Assembly (NCBI GenBank): GCA_021803035.1
Contig: JAJZME010000012.1
Span: 1-64,000, forward strand
Source: Acidobacteriota bacterium
GTDB lineage: Bacteria > Acidobacteriota > Terriglobia > Terriglobales > Acidobacteriaceae
Length of the DNA: 64,000 nucleotides
Reading direction: 5' to 3'
Below, in pieces: positions 19,891 to 47,154 of this stretch. The notes below the pieces were generated by a model, which saw nothing but the letters and a program-made list of their open reading frames with translations, did not search any database and was not told the origin of the DNA. The first letter of the stretch is position 1, and each line of letters begins with the position of its first letter. The position numbers and the translations under genes were made by a program.

Positions 19891-21048
19891 TTAGTAAGAG
19901 CAGGAGGATGCTTCTTCGACAAAAGCTCTCAGCAATTCGGGGCGCGCGTCGAAGAAATGATCAGATGGCGCCAGGATGAATCGGCCACCGCCGCCGGCTT
20001 CTTTGAAGCAGCGGCGAACCTCCGCGCGAGTTGCCGATACGTCGCAACCTGTGAAGAAGTGCAGTTGATCGAAGCCGCCGATCATACACACCCGGCCGCC
20101 GATCCGTTTGTGCGCTTCCTCCAGGTCCGCATCGCCACCCATTCCCCGCGGGGTGAACGTCTCGAGAGCATCCACTCCCAATTCAACGGCACGTTCCACC
20201 ATGGGCATGATTTTCCCGCAAAGATGATACACAATGCGCTGTCCGGCGCGGTGAGCTGTCTCTACCAGCGGCGCGTCATAGGGCGCTACAAAGCGGTCGA
20301 ACATGCGCGGTGAGATCACGCTTGCGGAGGCATCGCCGCCGCCGAATTCAAGGATGTCGTAGTGCGCCCCGGCGAGGGATTCGATGAAACCGCGCTTGCG
20401 GCGCTGCAGGATCCGCAATAGTTCATGAACCCATTCGGGATCGTCGTTCGCCTCCATGATGAGGCGCTGCGAACCGACCAGACAGCAGGCATCCTGCCAG
20501 CAGCCGGGTTGGCCGAAAACATCGAAGCAGCAAATGTGGCCGCGCACTAGGCCGCGATCGCCCCACTCCGCGGCGGTTTTGTTCAATGCCTCCACGTCGC
20601 AGTTTGGCGTGGTCACATAGGCGCCGATCAGGTCGATGTCGCGCTTTTGTTTGATCAGCGGTTCGGTAACCCACACCGTGTAATCAGCCGTCTCGACCAC
20701 CATCGTCAACGTACCGGCAGGCGTAACAAAGTTGTAGCGGGTCAGGTTGCGTCCATCCTTGCTCACGTCTTCGGAGTAGACGCGCCAACTGTCGTTGGCA
20801 ACACGATGGCTTTCGAGAAAGCCAATGCTCGTCTGCAGCGGATCGGGATAGTCGCCGGAACCGGGGGCGGGCTTGTGGGGAACGCACCAGGTGATGGCGT
20901 CGAAGCCGAATTCGTCCCAGAATTGCCGCTCCGGCATGCCCGAGAGACAATGTTCGAGAAAGAAGGGCATGACGTGGTGGGTCGTTACCGGCAGACGGTC
21001 CGGCCCGGTTCCTGTTATTGCTGCAAGCATTCGTTGTTTCGATGTCAT
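19891..21048 (-). CDS. Uroporphyrinogen-decarboxylase-fold corrinoid methyltransferase
   Basis: 385 aa from ATG 21048 (a GGGGGGA ribosome site precedes it; the open frame runs further upstream without conservation). It belongs to the UroD/MtaA/CmuA-like group that moves methyl groups to or from cobalamin proteins, not to heme-synthesis UroD. Seen: DILEFGGGDASASVISPRMF near 231-250, and the HxC pair H275-L-C277 (YHLCGKIMPMVE), which supplies two zinc ligands in MtaA-type enzymes. The usual third ligand Cys near the C-terminus is not seen; APSDHFF (362-366) occupies that region. Divergent from a lyxose isomerase and a corrinoid-protein gene through a shared operator region. Substrate unknown. 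Confidence 0.8.
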   Translation of the reverse strand: MTSKQRMLAAITGTGPDRLPVTTHHVMPFFLEHCLSGMPERQFWDEFGFDAITWCVPHKPAPGSGDYPDPLQTSIGFLESHRVANDSWRVYSEDVSKDGRNLTRYNFVTPAGTLTMVVETADYTVWVTEPLIKQKRDIDLIGAYVTTPNCDVEALNKTAAEWGDRGLVRGHICCFDVFGQPGCWQDACCLVGSQRLIMEANDDPEWVHELLRILQRRKRGFIESLAGAHYDILEFGGGDASASVISPRMFDRFVAPYDAPLVETAHRAGQRIVYHLCGKIMPMVERAVELGVDALETFTPRGMGGDADLEEAHKRIGGRVCMIGGFDQLHFFTGCDVSATRAEVRRCFKEAGGGGRFILAPSDHFFDARPELLRAFVEEASSCSY

Positions 21049-21309: not shown

Positions 21310-21323
21310 TTGAAAGCTTTTAA
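21310..21323. promoter_or_regulatory. Operator B (LacI-type inverted repeat)
   Basis: TTGAAAGCTTTTAA, 16 bases past the -10 box when measured to TGAAA, consistent with a roadblock or promoter-occlusion site. The identical sequence recurs at 41939-41952. Confidence 0.7.
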
Positions 21324-21956
<633 letters not shown>

Positions 21957-22051
21957 GCGGGATGGAACAGGGGGCAGGCGCTCGCAGGGCGCACAGCGGC
22001 CCAAACCGCTTCTCGCGCGTTCAGTAGAGGATTTGCATTGAGGTTATGATT

Positions 22052-22690
22052 ATGCGTCCATGGGAAGATCTTTACGAAGCTATCCTGAACGGCCAGGCCC
22101 AGAAAGCGCACGCCGCCACCCAAACTGCGCTCGAAGCAGGCGCTGCGCCAATGACTCTGATCTCCGAAGCCATGATTCCAGCTATGGACGAGGTCGGGCG
22201 CCTGTTTGAGGCCGAAGAGTATTTTGTGCCGGAGTTGCTATTGGCGGGGCGCGCCATGAAAGGCGCAATGGAACTGCTGCGGCCGCTGCTTGCCGCGTCG
22301 GGAAACGGGTCGACCGCGAGGATTGTGATCGGTACCGTAAAAGGCGACCTGCATGATATCGGCAAGAATCTCGTAGCTTCGATGCTCGAGGGCGCGGGCT
22401 TTGAAGTAATCGACCTCGGCGCCGATGTGACCCCGGAAAAATTCGTGGCAGCGGTGCAGGTAAACAAGCCCAAAGTAGTGTGTCTCTCGTCGCTTCTTAC
22501 CGTCACCATGCCGGGGATGAAGACAACCATCGATGCGTTGACCGACGCCGGCGTGCGCACCGGGGTGAAGGTGCTCGTTGGCGGCGCTCCGGTGACGATG
22601 CAATATGCAAGGGAAATAGGCGCCGACGGATACAGTGACAATGCTAGCGGCGCCGTAACGCTGGTGAAGCGCCTCCTGACGCCGGCCTAG
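22052..22690 (+). CDS. Cobalamin-binding corrinoid protein of a methyltransferase system
   Basis: 212 aa. The N-terminal four-helix cap (residues about 1-85) and the Rossmann B12 domain match the MtaC/MtbC/MttC/MtvC family. The base-off cobalamin motif is D99-L-H101-D-I-G104, followed by CLSSLLTVTM near 145 and VLVGGAPVT near 175. The protein holds the corrinoid that accepts a methyl group from a substrate-specific methyltransferase and hands it on. ATG 22046 is also in frame but only two bases from GAGG, so 22052 (eight bases) is preferred. It follows the isomerase gene and faces the UroD-fold gene. No reductive activase gene is in the window. Confidence 0.9.
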   Translation: MRPWEDLYEAILNGQAQKAHAATQTALEAGAAPMTLISEAMIPAMDEVGRLFEAEEYFVPELLLAGRAMKGAMELLRPLLAASGNGSTARIVIGTVKGDLHDIGKNLVASMLEGAGFEVIDLGADVTPEKFVAAVQVNKPKVVCLSSLLTVTMPGMKTTIDALTDAGVRTGVKVLVGGAPVTMQYAREIGADGYSDNASGAVTLVKRLLTPA

Positions 22691-22731: not shown

Positions 22732-22807
22732 TTGACTTGTGCTTTATGCTTTACGCTATTTTCGACGAGGAGCGGCAACGAAAGCCCTGCTATTCTGAAA
22801 GCATTCA
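22732..22807 (+). promoter_or_regulatory. Possible lacI promoter and operator
   Basis: TGAAAGCATTCA (22796-22807) matches the operator family and suggests autoregulation. A TTGACT (22732-22737), 17 bp, GCTATT (22755-22760) pair could be the promoter but is weak, and the distance to the operator (35 bases) differs from the other sites. Confidence 0.45.
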
Positions 22808-22937: not shown

Positions 22938-24008
22938 ATGGCGAACATGAAGCGAATCGCTGAACTCGCGGGGGTTTCGCTCGGCACGGTCTCTCATGTA
23001 TTGAACGGCACTGCACGCGTGAGGGAGCCGCTCCGCGAGCGAGTGCTCAATGCCGTCCACGAAACGGGCTACCAGCCCAGCCAGTTGGCCCGCGGGCTGC
23101 GGAGAGACAAAACCAACATCCTGGCCATGATCGTGCCGGATATTTTGAATCCATTTTTCCCGGGTGTGGTGCGCGGGGCCGAGGATGTGGCGTTTGCCAA
23201 TGGGTTCCGTCTGGTGCTGTGCAACACCGACAACGACCACAAGAAGGAACTGGTTCATCTCAACGCGCTGCAAACCTACTTGCCATCGGGACTGATTGTG
23301 ATTCCTTCGGATTTCAGCGATTTGACAGCGCAGGCGGAGTCATACCGCAAGTCCGGGGCGGCGGTGGTGTGCGTAGACCGGCTGCCGCGCAACTGGGCCG
23401 GCGACAGTGTGACCAGCGACAATGCGGTGGGCGCCTTCAATGCCACGTCGTATCTCATCGATCTTGGTCACCGCCGCCTGGCGGTGATTACCGGCCCGCT
23501 GCACCTGACCAACTCACAGGACCGGCTGAAGGGATTCAAGCGCGCGGTGCGGCAGGCGGGACTGGAGATTGCTCCTGCCTATGCTCAGGAAGCAACCTTT
23601 GACCGGGCGGGCGGCTACGCGAAGACCAAAATCCTGCTGCGACTGCTTCCGCGCCCCACCGCAATTCTTGCCTGCAACGACATGATCGCTCTGGGTGCGC
23701 TTATGGCGGTGCGTGAGGAGAAGCTCAACTGTCCGGACGATATTTCCATCATCGGATTCGATGGACTGGATGTGACGGAAACGACCACTCCACAGCTTTC
23801 TTCGGTTTACCAGTCGTCCTACCAGTTGGGGGCAGAAGCGGTACAGTTGGCGCTCGACCGCTTCGCAGACACGAGTAGCCCGGTGCGTCACATCGTTCTG
23901 AAAACGGAACTGAAGATCCGGGAGTCGGTTGCGCCCCCGCCGAAGCTGGAGAGTGCAAATGGCACGGGCTCAGCGAAAAGGCTGCGTCTGGCCGCTGTTC
24001 GCGCCTGA
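22938..24008 (+). CDS. LacI-family transcriptional regulator
   Basis: 356 aa. The N-terminal helix-turn-helix MKRIAELAGVSLGTVSHVLN starts at residue 4, with the hinge segment near YQPSQLARGLR, then a periplasmic-binding-protein-like sugar domain (NILAMIVPDILNPFFPGVV, near 62; GFDGLDVTETTTPQLSSVYQ near 275). AAGGAG stands nine bases before ATG 22938. It is the only sugar-type regulator in the window and is the obvious candidate for the TGAAA-n2-TTTCA-type operators found at nine places from 21.2 to 42 kb. The effector would be a sugar or sugar phosphate; which one is not known. Confidence 0.93.
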   Translation: MANMKRIAELAGVSLGTVSHVLNGTARVREPLRERVLNAVHETGYQPSQLARGLRRDKTNILAMIVPDILNPFFPGVVRGAEDVAFANGFRLVLCNTDNDHKKELVHLNALQTYLPSGLIVIPSDFSDLTAQAESYRKSGAAVVCVDRLPRNWAGDSVTSDNAVGAFNATSYLIDLGHRRLAVITGPLHLTNSQDRLKGFKRAVRQAGLEIAPAYAQEATFDRAGGYAKTKILLRLLPRPTAILACNDMIALGALMAVREEKLNCPDDISIIGFDGLDVTETTTPQLSSVYQSSYQLGAEAVQLALDRFADTSSPVRHIVLKTELKIRESVAPPPKLESANGTGSAKRLRLAAVRA

Positions 24009-24051: not shown

Positions 24052-26145
24052 TCAGGCTTTCAGATCGGGAAAGATCGTTACTCGCAATTTGGTTGACCCG
24101 TAAGGCTCCAGCGCAACTCTCTCCGTGGTTTCGCTCACCTGCACAGCACTCAGTTCGGGCAGGGACGGAGTGAATTGCTGAGCAGGATCGTCGGGGTTGA
24201 CCTGCAGATCCCAGCCGGCGATTTTCCTTGCAGGAACGGTGAGAGCAACAGGCGGATTCTCCCACGGGTCCAGCGCCTGATCGGGCGAAAGCGGTTGTTT
24301 CTTTACTTCGACATCCCTTTCCAGCGCATGTTCGTTGAGAGCAAGCCCATAATTCCAGTCGCTCTCCGGCCTTGCCTCCCAGCAGGGAAATTCTTCCGTA
24401 GAGTATTTTGCAACCACTTTAGAACTCCAGCGCGCGCGGATGGGCAGAGAGTAAACCAAAGGACCGCGCTCGATGCCGATCCCATTTTGCGGCCACCGCG
24501 AAATGGCGAGCCGCATGGGAAGCGTGAGGGTAATCTTGTCGCCATCGTGGAAGGCGCGGCGCAGAACGGCGAACCCCTTGCTTGTGCGCTCCGCTTGCCA
24601 TGGTGAGCCATTGATGGTGAGGCGCGGCTCCCGGCACCAACCGGGAATCCTGAGCGAGAGGGGAAATTCGGCTGGCCGGTCGGTGTGGATCGTGAAGCGG
24701 ATTTCCTCTTCAAATGGATAATGGGTGGACTGCACGATTGTGACCGGCTGGTTGCCGTCGCCAACCGTCGCAGTCACCGTCGATGGACCATAGAGAACCG
24801 CGGCTAACCCGCCATCGCCCGTCTTCATCCACATGCGGATGACGTAATTGGGCATCACGCGATGCACATTGCCGCCGCAGCAGGCGGTGCGCTGGCCGGG
24901 ATTGGGCTGGTAGGCCATCATGCTGCCGCCATGCTCCTTGAACTTCGGCCAGTTATGGTCGGAGTCGAGCGTGGCCAGGAATTGGTTGGGGCATGAGAAG
25001 TACTGCACCGCCTTCCAGTCATTGCGGATCGCGCCGGGCGCGGCGTTGAAGCAGGCGCGTTCGATATGGTCGCCCCAGGCAGCATCTCCCGTGGCCATCA
25101 GGTAGTATCCCCACGACCAGGTGTGATCGGTAATATCGCAGGTCTCGTGGGAATCCAGCGAAGTGACGGTGGCAAACCACTCCGAGGTGGACGGGATGCC
25201 GTCGATGAGCATGTGGTAGTCGAAGATGCGGCGCTGTGCAGCCAGCCCGAACTGCAGATAATCCTCTTTGCCGGTGTACAAGTAGAGAATCGCCGGCTGC
25301 TTGGCCGTCTCCGCATATGTCTCTCCGTGCGTATTGATGGGCGAATCGCTCAAGACGCGCAGTAAACCCAGATCGGAGTTCTCGGGATCGTCGGAATACT
25401 TCATGTACTCCTGCCACGCGTTCTCCGCCAGGCGCAGGAGGCGCGGATTGCGGGTCTGCGTATAGCACCACAGCATGTCTTCGATGTTGTTCACGTTCCG
25501 CTTTGGCTTGCCGTACGACGCGCTGTCACTCAGGTAGTGGCGCTGCATGGCTTCGGCGATATCGCGATGAGAAATGCCTGTGAGTGGCATGCCGGCATCG
25601 GAAATGGCAGCCAGGCTGCGGAAAAAGACGACGTGCGGCCAGCGGTGATAATCGGCCAGCGGCATCTGGAACAGCTCCGGCCCCAGATAGCCCTCCAGGT
25701 CGGGATGTGAAAGGGTGTACTCCATGGGTTTCGTGGTCTGATTCAGCAGTTGCTGATCTTCGAGCAAAATTGCCAGGCGCGTGGCGCCATCGATCCAGTA
25801 GGCTTTTTGTTCCCAGGGCCACCATTCTTCGTATTGCTGCTCCGGCAGCCAGTATTCACCCTGCTGCTCTTTACCCCAGTAATCCCTGGTGAACGGCCAC
25901 GACACTTGCGGAAGGTGCGAGCCGAGTTGCTGCGCCTGCTTTTGCAGATAACCGCGCAGCCAGCCCTGCGGCCGCACCGCGCCGGGCGGCAATGCCCGCA
26001 AAGCGCCGAAATAAGCAACTGGAGACGCATCTGCTTCGGGCTCAGCCAGGACAGCAGCGGGGCCCGCCAGCAAGGCGCAGCTCATGGCCGCCAAGCGCAC
26101 AAACTCCCGCCGGGTGAGATCATTCGCGTTGCTTCCTGCAGTCAT
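24052..26145 (-). CDS. Tat-exported GH127-like beta-L-arabinofuranosidase
   Basis: 697 aa. A twin-arginine signal (TRREFVRLAAMSCALLAGPA) starts near residue 10, so the folded, metal-loaded enzyme is predicted to be exported. The six-hairpin catalytic domain matches the beta-L-arabinofuranosidase family GH127 (and relatives GH146). The zinc-site and nucleophile pattern is kept: E334-T-C336 and C422-C423 (TACCGGNVHR), against E-x-C and C-C in characterised GH127. The C-terminal beta-sandwich covers roughly residues 500-690. It is the last gene of the minus-strand operon, 20 bases after the ROK kinase. Specificity for arabinose is inferred from family only. Confidence 0.8.
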   Translation of the reverse strand: MTAGSNANDLTRREFVRLAAMSCALLAGPAAVLAEPEADASPVAYFGALRALPPGAVRPQGWLRGYLQKQAQQLGSHLPQVSWPFTRDYWGKEQQGEYWLPEQQYEEWWPWEQKAYWIDGATRLAILLEDQQLLNQTTKPMEYTLSHPDLEGYLGPELFQMPLADYHRWPHVVFFRSLAAISDAGMPLTGISHRDIAEAMQRHYLSDSASYGKPKRNVNNIEDMLWCYTQTRNPRLLRLAENAWQEYMKYSDDPENSDLGLLRVLSDSPINTHGETYAETAKQPAILYLYTGKEDYLQFGLAAQRRIFDYHMLIDGIPSTSEWFATVTSLDSHETCDITDHTWSWGYYLMATGDAAWGDHIERACFNAAPGAIRNDWKAVQYFSCPNQFLATLDSDHNWPKFKEHGGSMMAYQPNPGQRTACCGGNVHRVMPNYVIRMWMKTGDGGLAAVLYGPSTVTATVGDGNQPVTIVQSTHYPFEEEIRFTIHTDRPAEFPLSLRIPGWCREPRLTINGSPWQAERTSKGFAVLRRAFHDGDKITLTLPMRLAISRWPQNGIGIERGPLVYSLPIRARWSSKVVAKYSTEEFPCWEARPESDWNYGLALNEHALERDVEVKKQPLSPDQALDPWENPPVALTVPARKIAGWDLQVNPDDPAQQFTPSLPELSAVQVSETTERVALEPYGSTKLRVTIFPDLKA

Positions 26146-26165
26146 CGAAATATCTCCGCGTGATG

Positions 26166-27170
26166 TTATGAAACCGTCTGCTTCTCTTCGGACCGCCATT
26201 TACAGCGCGGCGCACCACGGTCGCCCGCGCGGTGCAGCAAGGCGGCGCCGATCAAGGGCGCGTCTTCGCCAAGCTTCGACTTGCAAATACGAACCTTCTC
26301 GGAGATAGCTTCATAGGCCCGGCCGCGCACAAAAGCAATCAGCGGGTCGAGCAGCAGTTGGGCAGGCGCGTTGCTGATGCCGCCGCTGATGGCGATCATC
26401 TCCAAACTGTTGAGATTGATGAGATTCACGAGCCCAATGCCTATGTAACGCACCACGCCGTCAGTCAAATTGCGCGCCTGCGCGTTTCCCTGTTGCGCCA
26501 GTTGGTAAACGTCGCTGACCGTAACGCTCGAAATGTCTTTATGCAGGAGCTCGCCGACCCCGGAGATGCGTTTCCCCGCCTCCCGCACAATGGCCAATCC
26601 GCCGGCGTGCGCTTCCAGGCAGCCACGGCGCCCGCAGTTGCACAACTCTCCGTTCAGCTCGACGATCTGGTGTCCGAACTCCCCGGCTGTATTGAGCGCG
26701 CCGTGAAAAATCCTGCCGTCGATCACCATTCCACAGCCAATTCCAGTGCCCAGGGTCACGGCGGCGATGCCCCGCATGCCCTGTCCTGCACCCACAACGT
26801 ACTCAGCCCATGCCGCCGCGCGCGTGTCTTGCGCGATAAATACGGGCATGTGAAAGGCAGCCTGAATCGCCGGAACGATCGCGACATGTTTCCAGAACAG
26901 ATTAGGGGCGTAAATCACGACTCCATTTGCCGAATCCGCCGTGCCCGGCACACCGAGGCCAATGCTCTTCAGATCGCGATAAGCAACAGCGCACTGCCGC
27001 ACCATGGCGTTGATCTCCTGAACGATGGAACCGATGATTGCGCTGCTGCCGCGATCCGGATCGGTCCTGGTCTTCTTCTGGAAAAGAATCCCGCCCGATT
27101 CATCGACCAGGCCGAACTTGATATTCGTTCCGCCGACGTCCACTCCGATGCTCAACATTGGACCCGCCAT
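26166..27170 (-). CDS. ROK-family sugar kinase
   Basis: 334 aa. SIGVDVGGTNIKFGLVDESG (residues 7-26) is the ATP-binding DxGGTxxK motif. IGLGVPGTAD follows, then VTLGTGIGCGMVIDG (near 140), and the ROK zinc motif CNCGRRGCLEAHAG (near 178). There is no N-terminal DNA-binding domain, so this is a kinase rather than a ROK repressor. In an operon with AlsE-like and RpiB-like genes it would be the counterpart of the D-allose kinase AlsK; glucose or another hexose is equally possible by sequence alone. Confidence 0.85.
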   Translation of the reverse strand: MAGPMLSIGVDVGGTNIKFGLVDESGGILFQKKTRTDPDRGSSAIIGSIVQEINAMVRQCAVAYRDLKSIGLGVPGTADSANGVVIYAPNLFWKHVAIVPAIQAAFHMPVFIAQDTRAAAWAEYVVGAGQGMRGIAAVTLGTGIGCGMVIDGRIFHGALNTAGEFGHQIVELNGELCNCGRRGCLEAHAGGLAIVREAGKRISGVGELLHKDISSVTVSDVYQLAQQGNAQARNLTDGVVRYIGIGLVNLINLNSLEMIAISGGISNAPAQLLLDPLIAFVRGRAYEAISEKVRICKSKLGEDAPLIGAALLHRAGDRGAPRCKWRSEEKQTVS

Positions 27171-27232
27171 TGCTGCCCCCCCATCGCTTCAGCAGCCAAA
27201 ACTGTCTCGAATCAAAATCAAATCGGCAATCA

Positions 27233-27673
27233 TCATCTGCGGCCTTCGTACTCGGCGATCTTGTTGATTCTGTCCAGATGCCGGCCACCCTCGAACTGCG
27301 CATCAAGCCAGACGTCGACAATCATCTTCGCCAGTTCGATGCCTACAACCCTCGCGCCCAGGGCGAGGACGTTCGTGTCGTTATGCTGGCGGGAAAGCTT
27401 GGCCGAGTAAGGTTCGCTGCACACGACGGCCCTGACGCCCTTCACCTTGTTGGCGCTGATCGAAATGCCGACTCCGGTGCCGCAAAAAACAATGCCTTTT
27501 TCGCAGGCGCCGCCGGCAACCGCCTCGCCTACGCGGAAGCCGAAGTCGCAGTAGTCCACGCGATCGGCGCCGCAGGTTCCCAAGTCGTGTACCTGGTAGC
27601 CCTTTTCGAGCAGATAGGCCTTGATTGCCTCTTTGAACTCGAACGCCGCGTGGTCAGAGCCTAGAGCGATCAT
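27233..27673 (-). CDS. rpiB: RpiB-family ribose/allose-6-phosphate isomerase
   Basis: 146 aa from ATG 27673; a GTG four codons upstream is possible. MIALGSDHAAFEFKEAIKAY is the family start, FCGTGVGISISANKVKGVRA carries the catalytic Cys of the E. coli-type enzymes, and RQHNDTNVLALGARVVG is the conserved His-containing segment. RpiB proteins isomerise ribose-5-phosphate and, in E. coli, also allose-6-phosphate to allulose-6-phosphate. The operon with an AlsE-like epimerase favours the hexose role here; that is inference. Confidence 0.9.
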   Translation of the reverse strand: MIALGSDHAAFEFKEAIKAYLLEKGYQVHDLGTCGADRVDYCDFGFRVGEAVAGGACEKGIVFCGTGVGISISANKVKGVRAVVCSEPYSAKLSRQHNDTNVLALGARVVGIELAKMIVDVWLDAQFEGGRHLDRINKIAEYEGRR

Positions 27674-27708
27674 GAGGTTGGCCACCAGCCTTTCTTCGCG
27701 TCGGCCGC

Positions 27709-28719
27709 TCACTGAACCATCGAGGTCACCAGCATGCCCAATCCTGCCAGGAAGAACACAAACATCGCCGCGATCATACCGTTGGTTCTCCTGGAAGCTC
27801 CTTTGGTCTCCTTCCAGACGAAGACCCCCCAGATGGCCGCGATCATCGTTCCGCACTGTCCCAGGCCGTAGGCGATTGCGGGACTCGCCGCACTGGAAGC
27901 CACGAAGCTGGAGGTAACTCCAACACCGTTGATAAATCCGCCCAGCATCCCGATGGCATGGTACTTGGCCGTGCCGCTACGAAAATAATCGGCATAGGTC
28001 ACGCGCGGTCCCTGCACTGGATGCGCCATCAGGTAAGTGTTAAAGACGATGTTGGAAAGAAAAGATCCGACGCAGTAGACGATCACGCCCGCATAGGGGC
28101 CGAACTTGCCGGGTTCAAGATGGTTAAAATCGGGGGACAGGGATTTCTGCACCAGAAAATAGAACAGGCCCATCAGGACGCCGCCACTCAGCGCCAGAGA
28201 AATTCCCAGCCGCAACCGCCCGGACCCGCTGGTCGCGCGCTGGCAGTTGCGGTATACGAGCGAATCCAGAACGATGGCCATGGTGATGAGTCCGACGCCG
28301 GTGAAGATCAGCAGCGGCTCGCCTTTGGGCTGCGCGATGTAGTTGATCAGCACACCCTCGACCAGCGCCAGTCCAATGGCGATGGGATAGGCAACCGCCA
28401 TCCCCGCCAGATCCAGCGCGGCCATGAAGAGCATGTTGGCCAGGTTAAAGACGACGCCGCCTAGAAGCGCCCATCCATAGCTGCTCGCGCTTGCCTGAGA
28501 CAAGTCGGCGAAGAGTCTTCTGCCTTCCATGCCGAGCGAGCCGAACGTAAGGCCAATGGCCAGTGGCAGAAGCAGGTAGCCGATGGCCTGATCCCAATAG
28601 AACAGCGAAAAACTGTAGGAACGAGGCTCCATTTTCAGGGTATTGGCCCATGAGCCCCAGCACAACATCGTCAGAACGCACAGGGTGACAGCGATTGGAT
28701 ACGAGTGTACAGTGATCAT
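27709..28719 (-). CDS. GRP/ureide-permease-like sugar transporter
   Basis: 336 aa with ten probable TM helices, starting PIAVTLCVLTMLCWGSWANT, the signature of the GRP/RhaT-like drug-metabolite-transporter branch that takes up glucose, rhamnose or related sugars by cation symport. Another conserved stretch is GLGQCGTMIAAIWGVFVWKE near residue 285. The ATG overlaps the epimerase stop (ATGA, 28716-28719), so the two are coupled. It is the only inner-membrane sugar uptake gene in the island; no ABC or PTS importer is present. Confidence 0.82.
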   Translation of the reverse strand: MITVHSYPIAVTLCVLTMLCWGSWANTLKMEPRSYSFSLFYWDQAIGYLLLPLAIGLTFGSLGMEGRRLFADLSQASASSYGWALLGGVVFNLANMLFMAALDLAGMAVAYPIAIGLALVEGVLINYIAQPKGEPLLIFTGVGLITMAIVLDSLVYRNCQRATSGSGRLRLGISLALSGGVLMGLFYFLVQKSLSPDFNHLEPGKFGPYAGVIVYCVGSFLSNIVFNTYLMAHPVQGPRVTYADYFRSGTAKYHAIGMLGGFINGVGVTSSFVASSAASPAIAYGLGQCGTMIAAIWGVFVWKETKGASRRTNGMIAAMFVFFLAGLGMLVTSMVQ

Positions 28720-29405
28720 GCGACCCGCCCCAGATTATCCACGAGGTTGCGAACAGCGTTGATGGCCTCAGGTATGGAATAGTCCTTCTGAAAGATGCTG
28801 GACGTTCCACCTACAAGCATGGTTGCGCCCGCGCGCACCATCTCCGGAATATGCGCAAAACTAACGTTGCCGTCGACTTGCAGATCGACATTCCAGTGTC
28901 CGCATGTGTCGAGCATTTGTCGCGTATCTGCAATCTTTCGCAGCATTGCGGGAATTAGCCGCTGGCCGGCGGCTCCAGGATTGACCGTCATCACCGTCAC
29001 CGCATCAATATCGTCGAGGATGTATTCAAGGGACTCGACGGGTGTAGCCGGATTCAGTGCGACTCCGGAGCGTGCGCCGGCATTACGGATTTGCTGCAGC
29101 ACCTTCTGTACCTGGTGTGTGGCTTCAAAATGGATAGTGATGGATGCGGCGCCCGCCGTGGCCGCCCTGTCGACATAGCGCTCCGGCTGTTCGATCATCA
29201 GGTGGCAATCCAGGGGGACATCGGTGATCCCACGAATTGTCTCCATGACAGAAAAGTCCAGGGCAAAGTTATCGACGAAGCGGCCGTCCATAATATCGAT
29301 GTGGAGGAAGTCGATATGCGCGGCGCTGAGTTGCCGCAGGTCGGCTTCGAGCGCGGCAAAATTTGCGCATGCAACCGAAGCTCCGAGTTGGATCGGCTTC
29401 GTCAA
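28716..29405 (-). CDS. alsE: AlsE-like D-allulose-6-phosphate 3-epimerase
   Basis: 229 aa of the ribulose-phosphate-3-epimerase family. Metal ligands are in LHIDIMDGRFVDN (near 35), PLDCHLMIEQPERY (near 67) and LQVDGNVS (near 175). Several segments read like E. coli AlsE rather than Rpe: LNPATPVESLEYI, VTVMTVNPGAAGQ, VDGN (not VDGGI) and VGGTSSIFQ. AlsE turns D-allulose-6-phosphate into fructose-6-phosphate. It is the promoter-proximal gene of the operon with permease, rpiB, ROK kinase and GH127. A plain pentose epimerase cannot be excluded. Confidence 0.75.
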   Translation of the reverse strand: MTKPIQLGASVACANFAALEADLRQLSAAHIDFLHIDIMDGRFVDNFALDFSVMETIRGITDVPLDCHLMIEQPERYVDRAATAGAASITIHFEATHQVQKVLQQIRNAGARSGVALNPATPVESLEYILDDIDAVTVMTVNPGAAGQRLIPAMLRKIADTRQMLDTCGHWNVDLQVDGNVSFAHIPEMVRAGATMLVGGTSSIFQKDYSIPEAINAVRNLVDNLGRVA

Positions 29406-29466: not shown

Positions 29467-29478
29467 TGAAAGCTTTCA
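29467..29478. promoter_or_regulatory. Operator C (perfect palindrome)
   Basis: TGAAAGCTTTCA, the only perfect palindrome of the set and the best consensus half-site pair. It lies 15 bases past the -10 box of the minus-strand operon promoter and about 60 bases before the epimerase ATG. Confidence 0.8.
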
Positions 29479-29675: not shown

Positions 29676-29689
29676 TTGAAACCATTCAA
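29676..29689. promoter_or_regulatory. Operator D
   Basis: TTGAAACCATTCAA, 13 bases past the -10 box counted to TGAAA. Confidence 0.6.
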
Positions 29690-29757: not shown

Positions 29758-30318
29758 ATGTTGAAGACGCTGACTGTGCTGCACACTCCAGAGCTGCTCC
29801 ACACCTTGGCTTCAATGGGGCATGGCGACGAAATCGCGCTGGTGGATTCCAATTATCCTGCTGTATCGACGGGCCAGCGGGTGATTCGCCTGGACGGCGC
29901 CAGCCTGGCTGAGACGCTGGAGGCATGCCTGCAGCTCATGCCACTGGACAACTTTGTTCAGGAACCCGCCTTGCGCATGCAGCAGGTTCATGCGCCCGAG
30001 GAGATTCCGGAAGTGCAGCAGACGTGCCAGAAAATCATTGACAGGGCGGAAGGGAAGCATGTGCCGCTCGCGGGGATTCCGCGGGAAGCGTTTTATGAAC
30101 GCTCGCGGCAGGCGTTTGCGGTGCTGATTACCGGTGAACAGCGGCCCTATGGCTGCATTCTGCTGAAGAAGGGGGTGGTCTTCCCCGCTTCAGTTGGCGA
30201 GGTGTCGCCGACAGGCAACGGCGCGGGGCGTGCCTCTGCTGCAGCCACGTCCCGCGCACACGACAAAGTTGAAACCCGCTCTGGCGGTGCCGGTCACGCC
30301 GGCCACAACGGACATTGA
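29758..30318 (+). CDS. RbsD/FucU-family sugar mutarotase with His/Gly tail
   Basis: 186 aa. LLHTLASMGHGDEIALVDSNYPA holds the catalytic His and Asp of the RbsD/FucU family, which interconverts anomers (or pyranose/furanose forms) of ribose or fucose. ERSRQAFAVLITGEQRPYGCILLKKGVV (quoted in two motifs) is the typical family end at about residue 143. About 40 further residues are Gly/Ala/Ser/His-rich (GGAGHAGHNGH at the terminus), absent from normal members. It precedes the clan GH-A gene by about 100 bases and may be co-transcribed with it. Confidence 0.85.
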   Translation: MLKTLTVLHTPELLHTLASMGHGDEIALVDSNYPAVSTGQRVIRLDGASLAETLEACLQLMPLDNFVQEPALRMQQVHAPEEIPEVQQTCQKIIDRAEGKHVPLAGIPREAFYERSRQAFAVLITGEQRPYGCILLKKGVVFPASVGEVSPTGNGAGRASAAATSRAHDKVETRSGGAGHAGHNGH

Positions 30319-30421: not shown

Positions 30422-31966
30422 ATGCGAACTCGGCAAGGCATTCTCTTTGCTCTCCTCGCGGCGATGGCCGCCATTCCGGCTTTGGCCGCGCCTCCCGCCG
30501 AAAACGGTTCGGCCTCGGTCACTGCACAGTGGACGAATATCGAGCGCGTGTCGGACACTGTTCCGACCACCCAGATTCTGGCGCATGCCTTCACGATGCG
30601 CAGCAACCCGCTCCACGACCCGCTTTTCAGAGCCCTTCGCAATCTGCACACCAACGACACGCGCCTGCAATTTTGGTTTTCCGTGACCAATCTCGCGCTG
30701 CCGGAGTTGAAAGAACCGACGGCCACTGAAACCTTCTGGAATTTCAAATACATGGATGAGCTGGTCGCCGATTATTACGCCAACACATCGGGCCGGCACC
30801 ACATCAACATGGGCACCATCCCCCGCTGGATGTTCAAGGTCCCGCCTGTGACGATCCCGAGCGATCCCGCGGCTTCGTTCTATGCCTACACCGACGGCAC
30901 CCGCGGCGATCTGCTGAAGGACCCCAGCGGCAAGCAATTCGCGGATTACCAGGTGCGCCTCTTTGAGTGGTATACGAAAGGCGGGTTTACCGATGAGCTG
31001 GGCAAATACCACAAGTCCGGCCACTACTACAAGATCGACTACTGGGGCGTGCTGAACGAGCCCGATTTCGAAAACAAAATCACTGTTGAGCAGTACACCA
31101 GGATCTACGACGCGGTAACCACGGCCATCCACAAAATCGATCCTGAGGTTCAGTTCTTTGGGCCGGAAGTCTCCGGCGCGGAAGTCTCCTGGGCAAAGTA
31201 CTTCCTGAATCCGAAAAATCACAGCCCCGAAGCGCCTCCGGTAGCGTGGTTCAGCTTTCATAATTACGTCAATGCGCCGAACGATCCGTCTACCTGGCAT
31301 GCCAAATACTTCACCGATCCGGCGAGTGGCCCGACCGATGGCGCCTCGGCCAACGCCTTCGCGGAAAGAATCCAGCAGGTGATGAAGATTCGTGACGGCC
31401 TTTCGCCGAAGACCAAACTGATTGTCGACGAAATGGGCACGTTCGACGTCGTGAAACCCGGCGAGGAGGCGTGTCGCGCCAATGAGCCCTACACGGCCTT
31501 CAATCCGCTTTACTGGAACGCAAACGGCGCCAACTGGGCGGTCAATTTCATCACCGCGGAGCGACTGGGCCTGCCGCTTATCAGCGTCTCGCAGATGGTC
31601 GGTTACCCAACGCAATGCCCGTCGATCGCAATGTTCGATCCGGATACGGCAAAGCCCAACGCGCACTACTGGGTGCTGTACCTGGTCAATAGAAATTTCG
31701 GGCCGGGCGACAAGCTGGCCGCAACCAGGTCTTCTTCAGAAGATGTTGTGGCCCAGGCGTCAATCACTCCTGGCGGTCGAAAGGTGCTGCTGATCAATAC
31801 AACCGACCAGCCGATGGACGTCGATCTCTCAGGGGTGTTTTATATGCCGAACCTGACCGCCGAAGTAGTCGACCAGACTTCAGGAGAAGACCAGCCCCGG
31901 CGGGAGAGCCTGACTGACCGGCACATCACGCTGGCGCCATTTGCGGTCGCCGTCGTGCTGCAGTAA
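30422..31966 (+). CDS. Exported clan GH-A glycoside hydrolase (GH39-like)
   Basis: 514 aa. The signal peptide (LLAAMAAIPALA) ends near residue 23. The TIM-barrel shows WGVLNEPDFEN near residue 207, where the Asn-Glu pair is the clan GH-A acid/base, and KLIVDEMGTFD near 337 with the likely nucleophile Glu. A C-terminal beta-sandwich (from about 430: VLLINTTDQPMDVDLSG) closes the chain. These features fit GH39 (beta-xylosidase, alpha-L-iduronidase) or a near relative; the exact family and sugar are not certain. It sits between the mutarotase and the GH13 gene on the same strand. Confidence 0.7.
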   Translation: MRTRQGILFALLAAMAAIPALAAPPAENGSASVTAQWTNIERVSDTVPTTQILAHAFTMRSNPLHDPLFRALRNLHTNDTRLQFWFSVTNLALPELKEPTATETFWNFKYMDELVADYYANTSGRHHINMGTIPRWMFKVPPVTIPSDPAASFYAYTDGTRGDLLKDPSGKQFADYQVRLFEWYTKGGFTDELGKYHKSGHYYKIDYWGVLNEPDFENKITVEQYTRIYDAVTTAIHKIDPEVQFFGPEVSGAEVSWAKYFLNPKNHSPEAPPVAWFSFHNYVNAPNDPSTWHAKYFTDPASGPTDGASANAFAERIQQVMKIRDGLSPKTKLIVDEMGTFDVVKPGEEACRANEPYTAFNPLYWNANGANWAVNFITAERLGLPLISVSQMVGYPTQCPSIAMFDPDTAKPNAHYWVLYLVNRNFGPGDKLAATRSSSEDVVAQASITPGGRKVLLINTTDQPMDVDLSGVFYMPNLTAEVVDQTSGEDQPRRESLTDRHITLAPFAVAVVLQ

Positions 31967-32038: not shown

Positions 32039-33469
32039 ATGCCCCATGTAAGGACACAAGGCCGCTCCGGGCCGATCTTGGCCAGCCTGGCGCGCGGTTT
32101 GATCGCACTTCTGCTGCTGGCCGCGCCGCTCGCTGCAGCCAGTGCGCAGAACCTCTCCTTTGGCTTGCAGGCTGCGCGTCCGGTTCCGCCCTGGCTCCAT
32201 CGCGCAACCATCTACGAACTCTGGCTCAACGCGTTCAGCAAGGAAGGCAATCTGCGCGGCGCAATTCCCGGCCTGAAACACATTGCTGATCTGGGCGCGA
32301 CGATCGTCTATCTGGGCCCCATCGCAAAACGCTCAGCGGATCCATATGCCTCGCCTTACGGCATTGCCGACTACAATGCCATCGATCCCGCGTGCGGCAC
32401 CGACCAGGACCTGCGCGACTTTGTCGCAGCCGCGCACGCCCTGCATCTCAAGGTGATGCTGGACATCGTCTACTATCACACCGCGGCAGATAACGTCATG
32501 ATGCGGAAGGATCCGGCCTTCTACGTCAAAACGCAGGACGGCCGCATCGCGCGCGGCTTCTGGAACCAGCCGCTGCCCGACTTCAGCAAGCCGGAAGTGC
32601 GCAATTACCTGATCGACAGCCTCGTGCACTGGGTCCGCGATTTCGGCATCGACGGCTTTCGCTGCGATGTTGGCGGCGGCGTTCCCGAGTCATTCTGGGT
32701 GGATGCCCGCAAGGCACTGAACAAGATCAACCCCAACGTCATTCTCCTTTCAGAGTCGGACCGCCCCGACGATCAATTGCAGGCATTCGACATCAATTAC
32801 AACTTCAACTATTACCTGGCTCTGCGTTCCGTGTTGCGCGACGGCGCTCCCGCCAGCACCATTCGCAAAAGCTGGGAAGAGATGCACTCGACCATGCCGC
32901 GCGGCGCCCGCCTGCTGCACTTCAGCGACAACCATGACTGGCCGCGCGCTGTCATGCAGTTCGGAGAGAAAGGCGCATGGGCCGCTTCGGTTCTGGACTT
33001 CACCCTCGACGGCATTCCATTTCTCTATAACGGCCAGGAGGTCGCGGATCCAACCGCAACTTCCTGGATAAAGCCCGCGCCCATTCGTTGGAGCGATGCG
33101 GGGAATCCCGCCGATCAAAAATCGATCGAAGCGACGCTCGCCAACTACAAAAAGCTCTTTGCCATGCGCGCCTCCGAGCCGGCGCTGACCTCGGGCAGCG
33201 TGATCTGGATCAACAACACGCAACCCGACAGCGTCGTGAGCTTTCTGCGCAAGCTCGGTAGCACGGAGATCCTAGTCATCCTCAACCTCTCGAACCGCGA
33301 TGTGCACGTTACGGTGGATCTGCCGGTGATGGACTATTTCAAAGTGCAGAATCTTCTGAGTCCGGGCTTGACCTGGTTTTCGCTCTATTCGGGCCGTGTT
33401 TCTGCCGATCTCGCAGCCTACGGCTACGTCGTAGGCAAAAGGATACCGCTCGCTCCGCTCGCCCAATAG
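32039..33469 (+). CDS. Exported GH13 alpha-amylase-family enzyme
   Basis: 476 aa with an N-terminal signal region (LIALLLLAAPLAAASAQ, to about residue 37). GH13 motifs: MLDIVYYHT (region I, D142), GIDGFRCDVGG (nucleophile D210), VILLSESDRP (acid/base E239) and FSDNHDWP (D300). The C-terminal beta domain ends near residue 470. The short length and missing B-domain insertions suggest a small-oligosaccharide alpha-glucosidase or trehalose/maltose-type enzyme rather than an endo-amylase. Follows the GH-A gene by 72 bases, probably one transcript. Confidence 0.85.
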   Translation: MPHVRTQGRSGPILASLARGLIALLLLAAPLAAASAQNLSFGLQAARPVPPWLHRATIYELWLNAFSKEGNLRGAIPGLKHIADLGATIVYLGPIAKRSADPYASPYGIADYNAIDPACGTDQDLRDFVAAAHALHLKVMLDIVYYHTAADNVMMRKDPAFYVKTQDGRIARGFWNQPLPDFSKPEVRNYLIDSLVHWVRDFGIDGFRCDVGGGVPESFWVDARKALNKINPNVILLSESDRPDDQLQAFDINYNFNYYLALRSVLRDGAPASTIRKSWEEMHSTMPRGARLLHFSDNHDWPRAVMQFGEKGAWAASVLDFTLDGIPFLYNGQEVADPTATSWIKPAPIRWSDAGNPADQKSIEATLANYKKLFAMRASEPALTSGSVIWINNTQPDSVVSFLRKLGSTEILVILNLSNRDVHVTVDLPVMDYFKVQNLLSPGLTWFSLYSGRVSADLAAYGYVVGKRIPLAPLAQ

Positions 33470-38365: not shown

Positions 38366-38377
38366 TGAAAGGTTTCA
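38366..38377. promoter_or_regulatory. Operator E
   Basis: TGAAAGGTTTCA, 15 bases past the -10 box; flanks A and AT extend the dyad. Confidence 0.75.
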
Positions 38378-38440
38378 ATCCAAGCCGCAACTTGTGTGCG
38401 GCGTGGCGGAATTTTCGCGAACCGGCGAGGGAGGAATTGC

Positions 38441-39502
38441 GTGAATAGACGTGACGCGTTGAAGTATATGGCACTTCCGGCTGCGGGCGCTCTGCTGAAC
38501 ACAGTTGCGCGGCCGCTGCTGGCCGCGGAGCCGGCTGTCGGTCCGGCCGCTGAACTCACCCAGGCATTGGCCACCTACCAGCGGTTGCGCTTCGGCTGCT
38601 CCTTCCATTTCAGCACTCCCACCTTCACGGGAGATGACTACGACGTGGGTGCCGCTCCGGCCACCGTCTACAATCCGACCCATCTCGACGTGCGCCAGTG
38701 GATTCAGGTGGCTCACGGAATGGGCGCGAAATACGCCATCCTCACAACGAAATACATGTCGGGCTTCTGCCTTTGGGATTCGAAAGGCTACGACTACGAT
38801 GTCGCCGCCAGCGGAAACAAAACCGATGTGGTCGCCGCGTTTGTCGCCGCCTGCCGCGAATTCGGCCTGCAGCCGGGCTTCTATTACTCCATCCTCGACC
38901 CGCACAATGAAGGCAAGTTCGATTGGGATTCGCAGATCCCGGACCATTACTTCCCTCTGATTCAACACCACATCACTGAACTCCACTCGACCTATCCGAA
39001 CACCTTCTACCAGCTCTTCGACATTACGTGGAAGCTGACCGCTGCGCAGCGCTGGGAGTTGTACCGCCTGGTCAAGTCCTACAGCCCCAATTGCATCATC
39101 GTCGACAATCAGGGGTTCAAGCAGAGCCGGGTCAACCAAGGGCGCTTCTGCGAGCCGGCAAGCTGGCCCAGCGACGTGATCAACGGCGAAGACACCCTGC
39201 CGCCGCTCGAGGGGCACGATCCCCATATCACTTACCAAAAGAAGACTTACTACATGCCCTTCGAAACCTGGCTTCCGACCGGGCCCCTCTATCCGCCCAT
39301 GCCCTGGATGCACACCTGGTTCTGGCATCCCTGGTACAAGCCGCAAAGCCCTGAGGTGATCGCGGAGGCCTATCGGGACTGCATGAAAGGCAACGCGAAT
39401 CTTCTCCTCAACCTGGCGCCGGACAATACCGGCCGGATTCCTGAGAACCAGGTGGAGACCTTCAAGCGGGTTGCCGAATTGATCCGGATCAATGCGTGCT
39501 GA
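38441..39502 (+). CDS. Tat-exported GH29-like alpha-L-fucosidase homologue
   Basis: 353 aa from GTG 38441 (GAGGGAGGA upstream), which gives the Tat leader NRRDALKYMALPAAG. The GH29 barrel reads GMGAKYAILTTKYMSGFCLW, DVVAAFVAACREFGLQPGFYYS and NTFYQLFDITWKLT, with D194 as the predicted nucleophile. The fucose-binding pair of classical GH29 (KHHDGF) is replaced by KYMSGF, and the nucleophile sits in LFDITW rather than WFDG, so substrate specificity may differ. It ends DNTGRIPENQVETFKRVAELI, a usual GH29 barrel end, without a C-terminal lectin-like domain. Confidence 0.75.
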   Translation: MNRRDALKYMALPAAGALLNTVARPLLAAEPAVGPAAELTQALATYQRLRFGCSFHFSTPTFTGDDYDVGAAPATVYNPTHLDVRQWIQVAHGMGAKYAILTTKYMSGFCLWDSKGYDYDVAASGNKTDVVAAFVAACREFGLQPGFYYSILDPHNEGKFDWDSQIPDHYFPLIQHHITELHSTYPNTFYQLFDITWKLTAAQRWELYRLVKSYSPNCIIVDNQGFKQSRVNQGRFCEPASWPSDVINGEDTLPPLEGHDPHITYQKKTYYMPFETWLPTGPLYPPMPWMHTWFWHPWYKPQSPEVIAEAYRDCMKGNANLLLNLAPDNTGRIPENQVETFKRVAELIRINAC

Positions 39503-39587: not shown

Positions 39588-39599
39588 TGAAAGGTTTCA
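39588..39599. promoter_or_regulatory. Operator F
   Basis: TGAAAGGTTTCA, identical to operator E, 16 bases past the -10 box. The transcript then has an untranslated leader of about 140 bases before the ribokinase ATG. Confidence 0.75.
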
Positions 39600-39721: not shown

Positions 39722-40708
39722 ATGCGTCGGCCCATCGTAGTGGTAGGAAGTGTAAATCTTGATCTCGTAAGCATTGGGAAACGAATTCCTTTACCAGGCG
39801 AGACGGTAAAAGGTGAAAGATTCCAGACCTTCCACGGCGGCAAGGGCGCCAATCAAGCCGTCGCCGTCGCGCGGCTCGGTTACCCGGCCAGCATGATCGC
39901 CAAGGTCGGCGACGACGATTTCGGCGCGCGTCTCCGCCAGGGCCTGCGGGCAGCGCAGGTCAATGTGCGCGCGGTGGCAACTGCGGCGGGCACTGCCTCC
40001 GGCGTGGCGCTCATCGCGGTCGACCGCAAGGGGCAGAACAGCATCACCGTCGTGCCCGGCGCCAATGACCAGCTCCTGCCGCGCGATCTGGAAAAAGCCC
40101 TCCCCCAGCTGCGCGCCGCGGGAATCATCCTCACCCAGCTCGAGATTCCCATGGAATCAGTGCAATACCTGTGCTCCGTTGCCCAGCGTTTCCGGATCCC
40201 GCTCATGCTGGACCCCGCTCCGGCGCGTCCCATTCCGCGCAGAATGCTGCGCCAGGTCACCTTCCTCACGCCCAATGAGACGGAGACATGCGTGTTATGC
40301 GGCGCCGCGCCTGACCAGCTTACCGTCGCGACCGTCAGCCGATTCGCCGCGTCGCTGCTCGGCGGAGCCGCCAACGTCATCATCAAAATGGGCAAGCATG
40401 GCGCCTTCCTGGCCACCGCCGCCGGCTTGTCCCGGATGATACCGGCGTTCAAGGTCAAGCCAGTCGATTCCACGGCCGCCGGCGATGCCTTTAACGCCGG
40501 GCTCGCCGTGGCTTTGATGCAGGGCATGGATCTTGCTGAGGCTGTGCGCTTCGGCGCCGCCGTTGGCGCCATTTCCACCACGCGTGCAGGAGCGCAGCCT
40601 TCCATGCCCACCGCATCGGAAGTCATCCGGCTTGTTGCGTCGAGCGATGGCAAAAAGCAAAGCGCCCGGCCGAGACGGGAAACACGAATAGCGGAAGCTG
40701 CCGATTAG
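39722..40708 (+). CDS. rbsK: Ribokinase-family sugar kinase
   Basis: 328 aa from ATG 39722, where the conserved start IVVVGSVNLDLVSIGKRIPL begins; the open frame further upstream is the promoter region. PfkB signatures are FHGGKGANQAVAVARLG near residue 38 and DSTAAGDAFNAGLAVAL near 250 (catalytic Asp). Expected product is ribose-5-phosphate from D-ribose. The next gene, 16 bases downstream, is a nucleoside hydrolase that would release ribose, though its export signal places the two steps on opposite sides of the membrane. Confidence 0.88.
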   Translation: MRRPIVVVGSVNLDLVSIGKRIPLPGETVKGERFQTFHGGKGANQAVAVARLGYPASMIAKVGDDDFGARLRQGLRAAQVNVRAVATAAGTASGVALIAVDRKGQNSITVVPGANDQLLPRDLEKALPQLRAAGIILTQLEIPMESVQYLCSVAQRFRIPLMLDPAPARPIPRRMLRQVTFLTPNETETCVLCGAAPDQLTVATVSRFAASLLGGAANVIIKMGKHGAFLATAAGLSRMIPAFKVKPVDSTAAGDAFNAGLAVALMQGMDLAEAVRFGAAVGAISTTRAGAQPSMPTASEVIRLVASSDGKKQSARPRRETRIAEAAD

Positions 40709-41892: not shown

Positions 41893-41906
41893 TTGAAAGC
41901 TTTAAA
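41893..41906. promoter_or_regulatory. Operator G
   Basis: TTGAAAGCTTTAAA, 15 bases past the -10 box counted to TGAAA. Confidence 0.65.
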
Positions 41907-41938
41907 TCAGGCCGGAATCAATTTCATCCGCGTTATTT

Positions 41939-41952
41939 TTGAAAGCTTTTAA
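41939..41952. promoter_or_regulatory. Operator H
   Basis: TTGAAAGCTTTTAA, identical to operator B; its centre is 46 bases downstream of operator G, allowing a loop or cooperative binding. Confidence 0.65.
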
Positions 41953-42030
41953 AGAACAAGCGGGCACGGGCAGCCAAATGCGGCGCCCGGCCCGCTTGCT
42001 TCGGCCCTGATCCCAGTGAGGAGGATCATG

Positions 42031-47102: not shown

Positions 47103-47154
47103 CGCGTGCGGCTGGCATGGCCAACTAAACTGCCCAAACCCGGAAAGCGGAGAG

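Follow-up and report, generated by a model that had tools for sequence, protein, structure and literature searches.

Which sugar feeds the operon at positions 24052-29405 of a 64,000-nucleotide stretch of DNA from a soil bacterium of the Acidobacteriota? The stretch, here called the window, is the start of contig JAJZME010000012.1, which belongs to a 3.86-Mb genome that is 98.5% complete. An initial annotation, made from the letters of the DNA, had read these genes as an allose/allulose-type catabolic operon ending in a GH127 enzyme. D-Allose use is, to our knowledge, known in detail in few bacteria; allose and altrose correspond to the same ketose. It is fairly probable, in our judgment, that the epimerase, permease, RpiB and ROK kinase genes of this operon form a catabolic module for D-allose or D-altrose that works through the 6-phosphate and that is als-like without being the als system of Escherichia coli.

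The operon and its conserved module

Five genes, all on the minus strand, fill the interval. Open reading frames (ORFs) and Pfam agree on their placement, which is the one given by the initial annotation, and each gene has a Pfam match above cut-off:

28716..29405, minus strand: sugar-phosphate 3-epimerase, predicted D-allulose-6-phosphate 3-epimerase (PF00834, 220 bits; TTG start as listed)
27709..28719, minus strand: DMT-superfamily sugar permease (PF07168, 76 bits, and PF06800, 37 bits, both above cut-off)
27233..27673, minus strand: RpiB/AlsI-type aldose-6-phosphate isomerase (PF02502, 192 bits)
26166..27170, minus strand: ROK-family sugar kinase (PF00480, 219 bits; QDTRAAAW motif)
24052..26199, minus strand: GH127-like enzyme with a twin-arginine motif (PF20736 and PF07944; start at 26199 or 26145)

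The epimerase and permease genes overlap by 4 nt; gaps of 35 nt (permease to RpiB) and 62 nt (RpiB to ROK) follow. The RpiB start is most likely the ATG at 27673, just past the first of these gaps; a longer GTG ORF extends back into the permease gene. For the GH127-like gene, a start at 26199 gives a 34-nt overlap with the end of the ROK gene, and a start at 26145 leaves a 20-nt gap.

We infer the substrate and the order of steps from the protein families and their company. The DMT-type permease would import the free sugar, the ROK kinase would make the 6-phosphate, RpiB would isomerize this to allulose-6-phosphate, and the epimerase would convert allulose-6-phosphate to fructose-6-phosphate.

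Is this set of genes a unit? We scanned genome contigs with the permease and used the best 80 of 376 loci (numbered with an L below) for a survey. Homologues of the epimerase, permease, RpiB and ROK kinase stand together and in the same order in six further Acidobacteriota loci (L036, L037, L039, L040, L041 and L043) and in one from Parabacteroides (L062). Another Bacteroidales locus, L067, holds all four, with the epimerase about 7.6 kb from the permease. This makes nine module loci with the window included, seven from Acidobacteriota and two from Bacteroidales, and RpiB is present in 9/9. Since the order is conserved in other genomes, the gene order of the operon is not due to chance. By sequence search, the four-gene module is also rare. 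Among the matches listed from 250 genomes of the window's class, no other epimerase exceeds about 45% identity to that of the operon, and a search of 295 genomes from the Parabacteroides order gives, at an E value of 1e-60 or better, just the query genome and a single match of 45%.

The epimerase, isomerase, kinase and permease

The initial annotation called the epimerase AlsE-like and would have given this up had the protein fallen within housekeeping ribulose-phosphate epimerases (Rpe). We built a tree of 50 rows: 9 module epimerases, 31 Rpe, 6 AlsE and 4 plasmid epimerases. The Rpe rows include E. coli Rpe and the second copy of the window's own genome; the other 29 are the best non-self loci of a search in the class and are taxonomically uneven. 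The module epimerases form a clade of their own (support 100/99), apart from the 31 Rpe (100/99) and from the 6 AlsE (100/97), and the four plasmid epimerases fall outside all three groups. Three terminal branches of this tree are long. Another Rpe gene is present elsewhere in the window's genome, and all eight other module genomes likewise carry a second epimerase, of 36-38% identity. The epimerase is thus probably no housekeeping Rpe, as the initial annotation held, but it is not a member of the AlsE clade either.

Active-site loops tell a similar story. The phosphate is held by loops 6 and 7 of these epimerases. A loop-6 position is Gly in 30/31 Rpe rows but in none of the nine module or six AlsE rows, and the residue after the loop-7 DG is Asn in 9/9 module epimerases, Ser or Ala in 6/6 AlsE and Gly in 27/31 Rpe (two have Ala, and two could not be parsed). 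The three segments that had been singled out as AlsE-like (VTVMTVNPG, VDGN and GTSSIF) exist and set the protein apart from most Rpe; they are AlsE-like only in part. VDGN occurs in 0/6 AlsE rows, which have Ser (five rows) or Ala (one) in place of Asn, the AlsE counterpart of GTSSIF is G-[TSR]-SGLF, and MTVNPG is also found in 3/31 Rpe rows.

VDGN is shared by the operon epimerase and three of the plasmid epimerases, two of which lie beside ribokinase genes. This bears on a second reading, in which the operon serves allulose (psicose): the kinase would act on the ketose, only the epimerase would be needed, and RpiB would be a passenger. A ketose would suit the layout on Priestia and Enterococcus plasmids, where VDGN/FAGQ-type epimerases adjoin ribokinase and the vicinity has no annotated rpiB. 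However, RpiB accompanies the module in every one of its nine loci and is of the AlsI type, and we give allulose little chance.

E. coli RpiB shares 62% identity with the RpiB of the operon, and the other RpiB of the genome shares 43%; the operon protein scores 203 bits with TIGR01120 (cut-off, 139). We searched the window's genome for RpiA and did not find it, so the other RpiB is likely the pentose-phosphate enzyme. In an RpiB tree of 41 rows, one clade (99/97) unites the RpiBs of all nine module loci with that of E. coli and that of a Chloroflexota plasmid locus that bears an allose annotation. Outside it stay 30 other RpiBs: the second copy of the window's genome and 29 from the class, taken as the best non-self loci when 121 genomes were searched. 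Support is weak at the deeper branches of the tree, and the Chloroflexota sequence sits on a long branch. The RpiB of the operon is therefore of the E. coli AlsI type, as first proposed. Going by the title of Roos 2008, which PMC3212906 and PMC4783025 cite, E. coli RpiB is also a D-allose-6-phosphate isomerase, and the Mycobacterium tuberculosis enzyme is inactive on allose-6-phosphate. By its position in the tree, the operon RpiB favours allose-6-phosphate; ribose-5-phosphate is also compatible.

Could the module serve another RpiB-compatible hexose, such as talose or gulose, the epimerase then converting the corresponding ketose-6-phosphate? We know of no talose- or gulose-type route laid out as an operon with kinase, RpiB and epimerase, and allose has two precedents, in E. 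coli and Listeria. The point in favour is that RpiB enzymes are loose and accept talose, gulose and other sugars, according to PMC4783025. We regard such a hexose as the least probable of the alternatives.

The ROK kinase scores best with a glucokinase-type model, at 199 bits and under the cut-off of 260, and is 25% identical to E. coli AlsK. The residue before the Asp that we take to be catalytic is Gln in all eight module loci with a full ROK motif (the window counted once; L043 is cut), Arg, Lys and Lys in three AlsK, and Asn in two aligned glucokinases. The glucokinase Asn at this position touches the C3 and C4 hydroxyls of glucose, and its loss in both the module kinases and AlsK therefore fits a C3-epimer substrate, which is suggestive only. 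The proposal that the operon holds the three enzyme types of the E. coli D-allose pathway thus stands insofar as kinase, RpiB and epimerase are kept together; the kinase is not an AlsK orthologue.

The permease brings in the main rival, a ribose operon: the permease would import ribose, which would become ribose-5-phosphate by a kinase and then, by RpiB, ribulose-5-phosphate and, by the epimerase, xylulose-5-phosphate. We built a permease tree of 111 rows (106 distinct; the window was entered twice), with Shimodaira-Hasegawa-like approximate likelihood ratio test (SH-aLRT) support only. An 11-row clade (SH-aLRT, 99) consists of all 10 module rows, from the nine loci, and L038. It nests in a family that stands mostly beside ribokinase, as 73 of the 111 rows do (28 rows carry neither label), and this is a point for ribose. 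Yet in the fetched DNA, RpiB, epimerase and ROK are each absent from all 73 ribokinase-linked rows. All 10 module rows have the three, and none has a PfkB kinase. Fetched flanks reach up to 10 kb for the permease-scan loci and about 1.5 kb for a second set, which makes the absence more certain for the former; the ribokinase of the window is about 10 kb from the operon, outside the loci behind this count. Since, in the fetched DNA, RpiB and epimerase co-occur with ROK and not with a ribokinase-linked permease, the need for them goes with ROK and not with ribose uptake. The eight other module loci likewise show no ribokinase homologue in the DNA fetched, and their kinase is ROK. Further points against ribose are the other Rpe and RpiB copies in the genome and the departure of the epimerase from Rpe in two loops. 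Overall, we consider the ribose operon unlikely.

At L038 there is no epimerase match in the 7.5 kb before the permease, and the sequence stops soon after it. Two further permease homologues are present in the window's own genome, outside the window, at C31:64562-65569 (44%) and C82:79490-80434 (41%).

The predicted LacI regulon and the GH127-like enzyme

How is the operon controlled? We screened 12 stretches, lying ahead of genes or between them, for palindromes without fixing a motif beforehand. The perfect palindrome TGAAAGCTTTCA emerged before the epimerase gene in the window and in L036, L037, L041 and L043. When up to two mismatches are allowed, 11 matches fall in the window where 1.75 would be expected, and 0/100 shuffles reach 11. 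With at most one, the whole 3.86-Mb genome has 11 sites, compared with 1 for the reversed pattern. Seven of these 11 lie within the window, between 21311 and 41951, before genes; the other four are inside ORFs elsewhere, as called by a simple script. Six of the seven window sites stay clear of the adjacent ORFs even when these are taken at full length, and the seventh, at 39588, precedes the ribokinase only if this starts at 39722, where the kinase domain begins. A position weight matrix (PWM) was built from the sites themselves and so is no independent test; the unbiased search and the mismatch counts in window and genome are independent. The seven window sites score 17.7-25.1 with the PWM, against a background of 14 matches scoring at least 7 in 99,620 bases of other loci. 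The sites and the genes around them are as follows:

19891..21048, minus strand: URO-D-family protein, possible corrinoid methyltransferase partner
21311..21322, no strand: operator-like site, 1 mismatch, between the divergent URO-D and isomerase genes (a weaker site is at 21198)
21414..21956, plus strand: cupin related to D-lyxose/D-mannose isomerases (243 bits to 7nzo)
22046..22690, plus strand: corrinoid (B12-binding) protein, methyltransferase type
22796..22807, no strand: operator-like site, 1 mismatch, before the LacI gene
22938..24008, plus strand: LacI-family regulator (homologue of 80-84% divergent to the epimerase in L037, L041 and L043)
29467..29478, no strand: perfect palindrome TGAAAGCTTTCA, predicted LacI operator of the epimerase operon, from the unbiased palindrome search
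29677..29688, no strand: operator-like site, 2 mismatches, before the RbsD/FucU gene
29758..30318, plus strand: RbsD/FucU-type protein (sugar mutarotase family)
30422..31966, plus strand: GH39-like protein (weak match, under the Pfam cut-off)
32039..33469, plus strand: GH13-like protein
38366..38377, no strand: operator-like site, 1 mismatch, before the GH29-like gene
38396..39502, plus strand: GH29-like protein
39588..39599, no strand: operator-like site, 1 mismatch, before the ribokinase if its start is 39722
39722..40708, plus strand: ribokinase (TIGR02152 over cut-off; start assigned in this analysis)
40724..41683, plus strand: nucleoside hydrolase family protein (PF01156)
41894..41951, no strand: two operator-like sites (41894 and 41940), 1 mismatch each, before the outer-membrane protein gene
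42016..45627, plus strand: outer-membrane beta-barrel protein (PF25183, 605 bits; carboxypeptidase-regulatory-like domain)

The LacI-family regulator, presumably a repressor, would act through TGAAAGCTTTCA-like palindromes on the epimerase operon and on some seven other transcripts in the window, one of them its own. Judged by its sites, the probable regulon comprises the URO-D gene; isomerase-corrinoid protein; LacI; the epimerase operon; RbsD-GH39-GH13; GH29; ribokinase-nucleoside hydrolase; and the outer-membrane protein, which is probably a TonB-type receptor from its sequence, with no Plug domain match. The helix-turn-helix (HTH) of LacI in L037 and L041 is nearly identical to that of the window. 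In the close relatives L037, L041 and L043, sites also stand before RbsD (3/3), and L037 and L043, unlike L041, have one close to the start of LacI; the L038 permease has an operator-like site 140 bp upstream. A strong site (17.7) at position 3010 of L041 lies within a GH13-like ORF and has no role in this scheme.

Several other genes share the window. For a GH36-like gene (36099-38300) and an 853-residue minus-strand gene without a Pfam match (33587-36148), both neighbours of the regulon, we saw no strong site. Homologues of the 853-residue protein also flank the L037 and L041 loci, as do those of an HGSNAT-like gene at 48431-49576.

A number of results weigh against the allose/altrose reading. 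In the tree of epimerases, the AlsE group stands on one side of a branch supported at 99/96, and the module, along with Rpe and three plasmid epimerases, on the other; therefore the module is by descent not nearer to AlsE than to Rpe. The epimerase reaches 191 bits with the AlsE model NF007266 (cut-off, 271) and lies just over the cut-off of the rpe model TIGR01163 (213.5 vs 212.6). The kinase stays below the allose-kinase (AlsK) model NF007251, with 114 bits vs 253. E. coli RpiB also takes ribose-5-phosphate, so the RpiB clade leaves room for ribose, and RpiB is described as a five-carbon enzyme, in contrast to LacAB, in PMC3755991. On the regulatory side, TGAAAGCTTTCA is not found before the epimerase of L039 or L040 (best L040 site, 11.2), and the predicted link from LacI to the palindrome has as its base their shared position and the near-identical HTH. 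Finally, a true ribokinase and a nucleoside hydrolase in the probable regulon point to ribose.

What do these points decide? The tree and the model score rule out that the epimerase is a plain AlsE. The tree, the second copy and the loop residues speak against its being a housekeeping Rpe, although it marginally passes the rpe model. Ribose does gain from the probable regulon, which contains the ribokinase (TIGR02152), a RihC-like nucleoside hydrolase and RbsD/FucU, and from LacI, which scores best with the RbsR model, although far under its cut-off (238 vs 531 bits) and with CytR and PurR close behind. The epimerase operon itself, however, has no PfkB ribokinase; that of the regulon is some 10 kb distant and has a similar site before it. 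To judge from this ribokinase and the nucleoside hydrolase, the natural substrate may bring ribose or ribosides along as well, and D-allose or D-altrose remains our preferred substrate for the four-gene module.

The last gene of the operon was described as a Tat-exported GH127 enzyme, and this description held, with export as a prediction from the RR-x-F twin-arginine motif that is seen both in the protein and in the consensus of its family. The enzyme would be exported by the Tat route and act on a glycoside outside the cytoplasm. It scores 81 bits with PF20736 (cut-off, 24.2) and 42.4 bits with PF07944 (cut-off, 24.9, over part of the profile), and is far from the NCBIfam aceric acid hydrolase model (92 vs 950). 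We obtained an AlphaFold2 model with a mean predicted local distance difference test (pLDDT) score of 81.4 and a predicted template modelling (pTM) score of 0.86. With this model, ranks 1-21 in Foldseek are GH127/GH146-type entries, as are ranks 1-19 in VIA, at Z scores of 27.4-33.5 (6ex6, 33.5); the next VIA row has a Z score of 14.2. Among these entries, 5mqo, 5opj and 8qf2 are ones that we take to be of GH127/GH146 type. Residues E340, E352, C354, C440 and C441 are invariant in 33 aligned rows, the window and 32 of the 35 homologues found (L019, L024 and L035 were left out). By analogy with HypBA1, these presumably are the acid/base Glu, the Glu-x-Cys and the Cys-Cys that provide zinc ligands and nucleophile.

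The GH127-like gene follows ROK in 4/8 informative loci (the window, L036, L037 and L041) and not in L039, L040, L062 or L067; L043 and L038 end too early to judge. Seven relatives from the class, of 50-62% identity, are found with no module beside them within the 6-20 kb fetched, and 3/7 adjoin GH92 genes. A GH127-like gene as a fixed part of an allose route is weakened by this linkage and by the relatives that stand elsewhere. The enzyme is thus a genuine protein of the GH127 type that was recruited locally. In L120, L121 and L122, three genomes of one family, GH127-like relatives (50-53%) are directly followed by a GH92 gene.

The initial annotation also took the combination to mean that the substrate is a rare-sugar glycoside. 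The glycosidases and receptor-like outer-membrane protein of the probable regulon agree with this, as do the SusC/SusD-type genes of L062, where Pfam names a TonB receptor and SusD as the two genes after a 331-residue protein that follows ROK; the linkage of the GH127-like gene to ROK in only 4/8 loci does not. L067 likewise has a 323-residue protein after ROK and then two genes in the sizes and order of the L062 pair, a match by size only. Neither the 331- nor the 323-residue protein has a Pfam family or a credible PDB match. These proteins (L062:12435-13427 and L067:12434-13402), probably exported, stand between ROK and the receptor-sized gene, and an aldo-keto-reductase-like role would be no more than a guess from their look. 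Related stretches occur elsewhere in L062 (2979-3746, 53%) and in L101 (47%). In L067, a PF06439 (3-keto-disaccharide hydrolase) gene at 19386-20288 comes right after the module epimerase and is followed by a second ROK gene.

The URO-D and corrinoid genes of the regulon raise the question of methyl transfer. The corrinoid protein resembles methyltransferase partners (NF047996, 206 bits; TIGR02370, 187 bits; both under cut-off). Its paralogues in L254 (own genome, contig C69, 1722-3787), L250 (4938-8187) and L252 (6101-8131) lie beside or near MtaB-type genes, that is, methanol-cobalamin methyltransferase (PF12176, about 500 bits), and a URO-D-like stretch adjoins the corrinoid gene in L249 and L250. 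Because of these neighbours, we propose methyl transfer for the window pair as a fair guess by analogy; we noticed no MtaB beside the pair itself. That every module locus has such a corrinoid pair was rejected. In the genomes of L036 and L040, the one match is of 34%, in a long MetH-sized frame, and those of L037, L041 and L043 have matches of 46-47% on other contigs; close copies (74-79%) do occur in the L038 and L039 genomes. Nine fetched corrinoid regions contain no strong operator-like site (best, 12.1, vs 17.7-25.1 for the seven window sites). In L250, the corrinoid and MtaB-type genes have a RhaT-like sugar permease nearby, and a second URO-D gene is in the window at 47047-48231.

One speculative possibility, which we think doubtful, is that the locus eats an O-methylated glycan bearing rare sugars. 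The LacI regulon would then join corrinoid methyl transfer, allose- and ribose-type catabolism, an outer-membrane receptor and glycosidases, and the B12 protein would remove the methyl group. A bolder addition is that allose may arise by C3 chemistry, as hinted by the PF06439 gene near the L067 epimerase and the exported protein by ROK in the Bacteroidales loci.

Comparison with known systems

If the allose/altrose reading is true, there is a second layout of the route, in Acidobacteriota and Bacteroidota, with another permease, another ROK kinase and another epimerase clade, and the route would have been assembled more than once. It would also become recognizable in genomes now read as ribose or pentose-phosphate metabolism. 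The operator offers a handle on the natural inducer and thereby on the origin of the rare sugar in soil and gut. In the open-licence literature, we found nothing on-topic for the specificity of the epimerase, the GH127 chemistry or allose in Acidobacteria and Bacteroides, which does not imply absence in print.

The known GH127 beta-L-arabinofuranosidases BT3674, Ara127N and HypBA1, together with BT_1003, match the predicted fold of the operon's GH127-like enzyme over nearly the full chain (Z, 30.5-33.5), and the Glu, Glu-x-Cys and Cys-Cys are kept. The window protein differs from them in its 16-20% identity over the aligned core, its twin-arginine motif and its own subfamily. The permease has its homologues in DMT permease-ribokinase loci of Bacteroidota, Acidobacteriota and others (46-55% in permease-scan loci). 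These loci differ from the module in having a PfkB kinase and no RpiB, epimerase or ROK in the fetched DNA (73/73 rows).

The nearest tested precedent for LacI, epimerase, RpiB and a glycosidase together is, by analogy, the allose cassette lmo0734-0739 of Listeria monocytogenes. In lineage II, LacI, epimerase and RpiB genes are needed for growth on D-allose, and a 6-phospho-beta-glucosidase gene lies alongside, according to PMC5893763, with which we compared by description. The cassette differs in its phosphotransferase system (PTS) uptake and in its kinase, a role guessed there for lmo0737, described as a TIM-type protein (PMC5893763).

The E. coli K-12 als genes and rpiB (NC_000913.3, 4306870-4313799) combine a kinase, a ribulose-phosphate-3-epimerase-type enzyme and RpiB in one locus, and the RpiB proteins are of one clade. 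AlsK, like the window kinase, belongs to the ROK family; the window kinase is not its orthologue, and the epimerase is of another clade. In place of the AlsBAC ABC transporter and of AlsR, the operon has a DMT-type permease and, nearby, a LacI-type regulator. The expectation of AlsE and AlsK as in E. coli als was thus not borne out. Since the operon departs from E. coli als in these four features (epimerase, kinase, transporter and regulator), we regard it as a variant of the als-type route.

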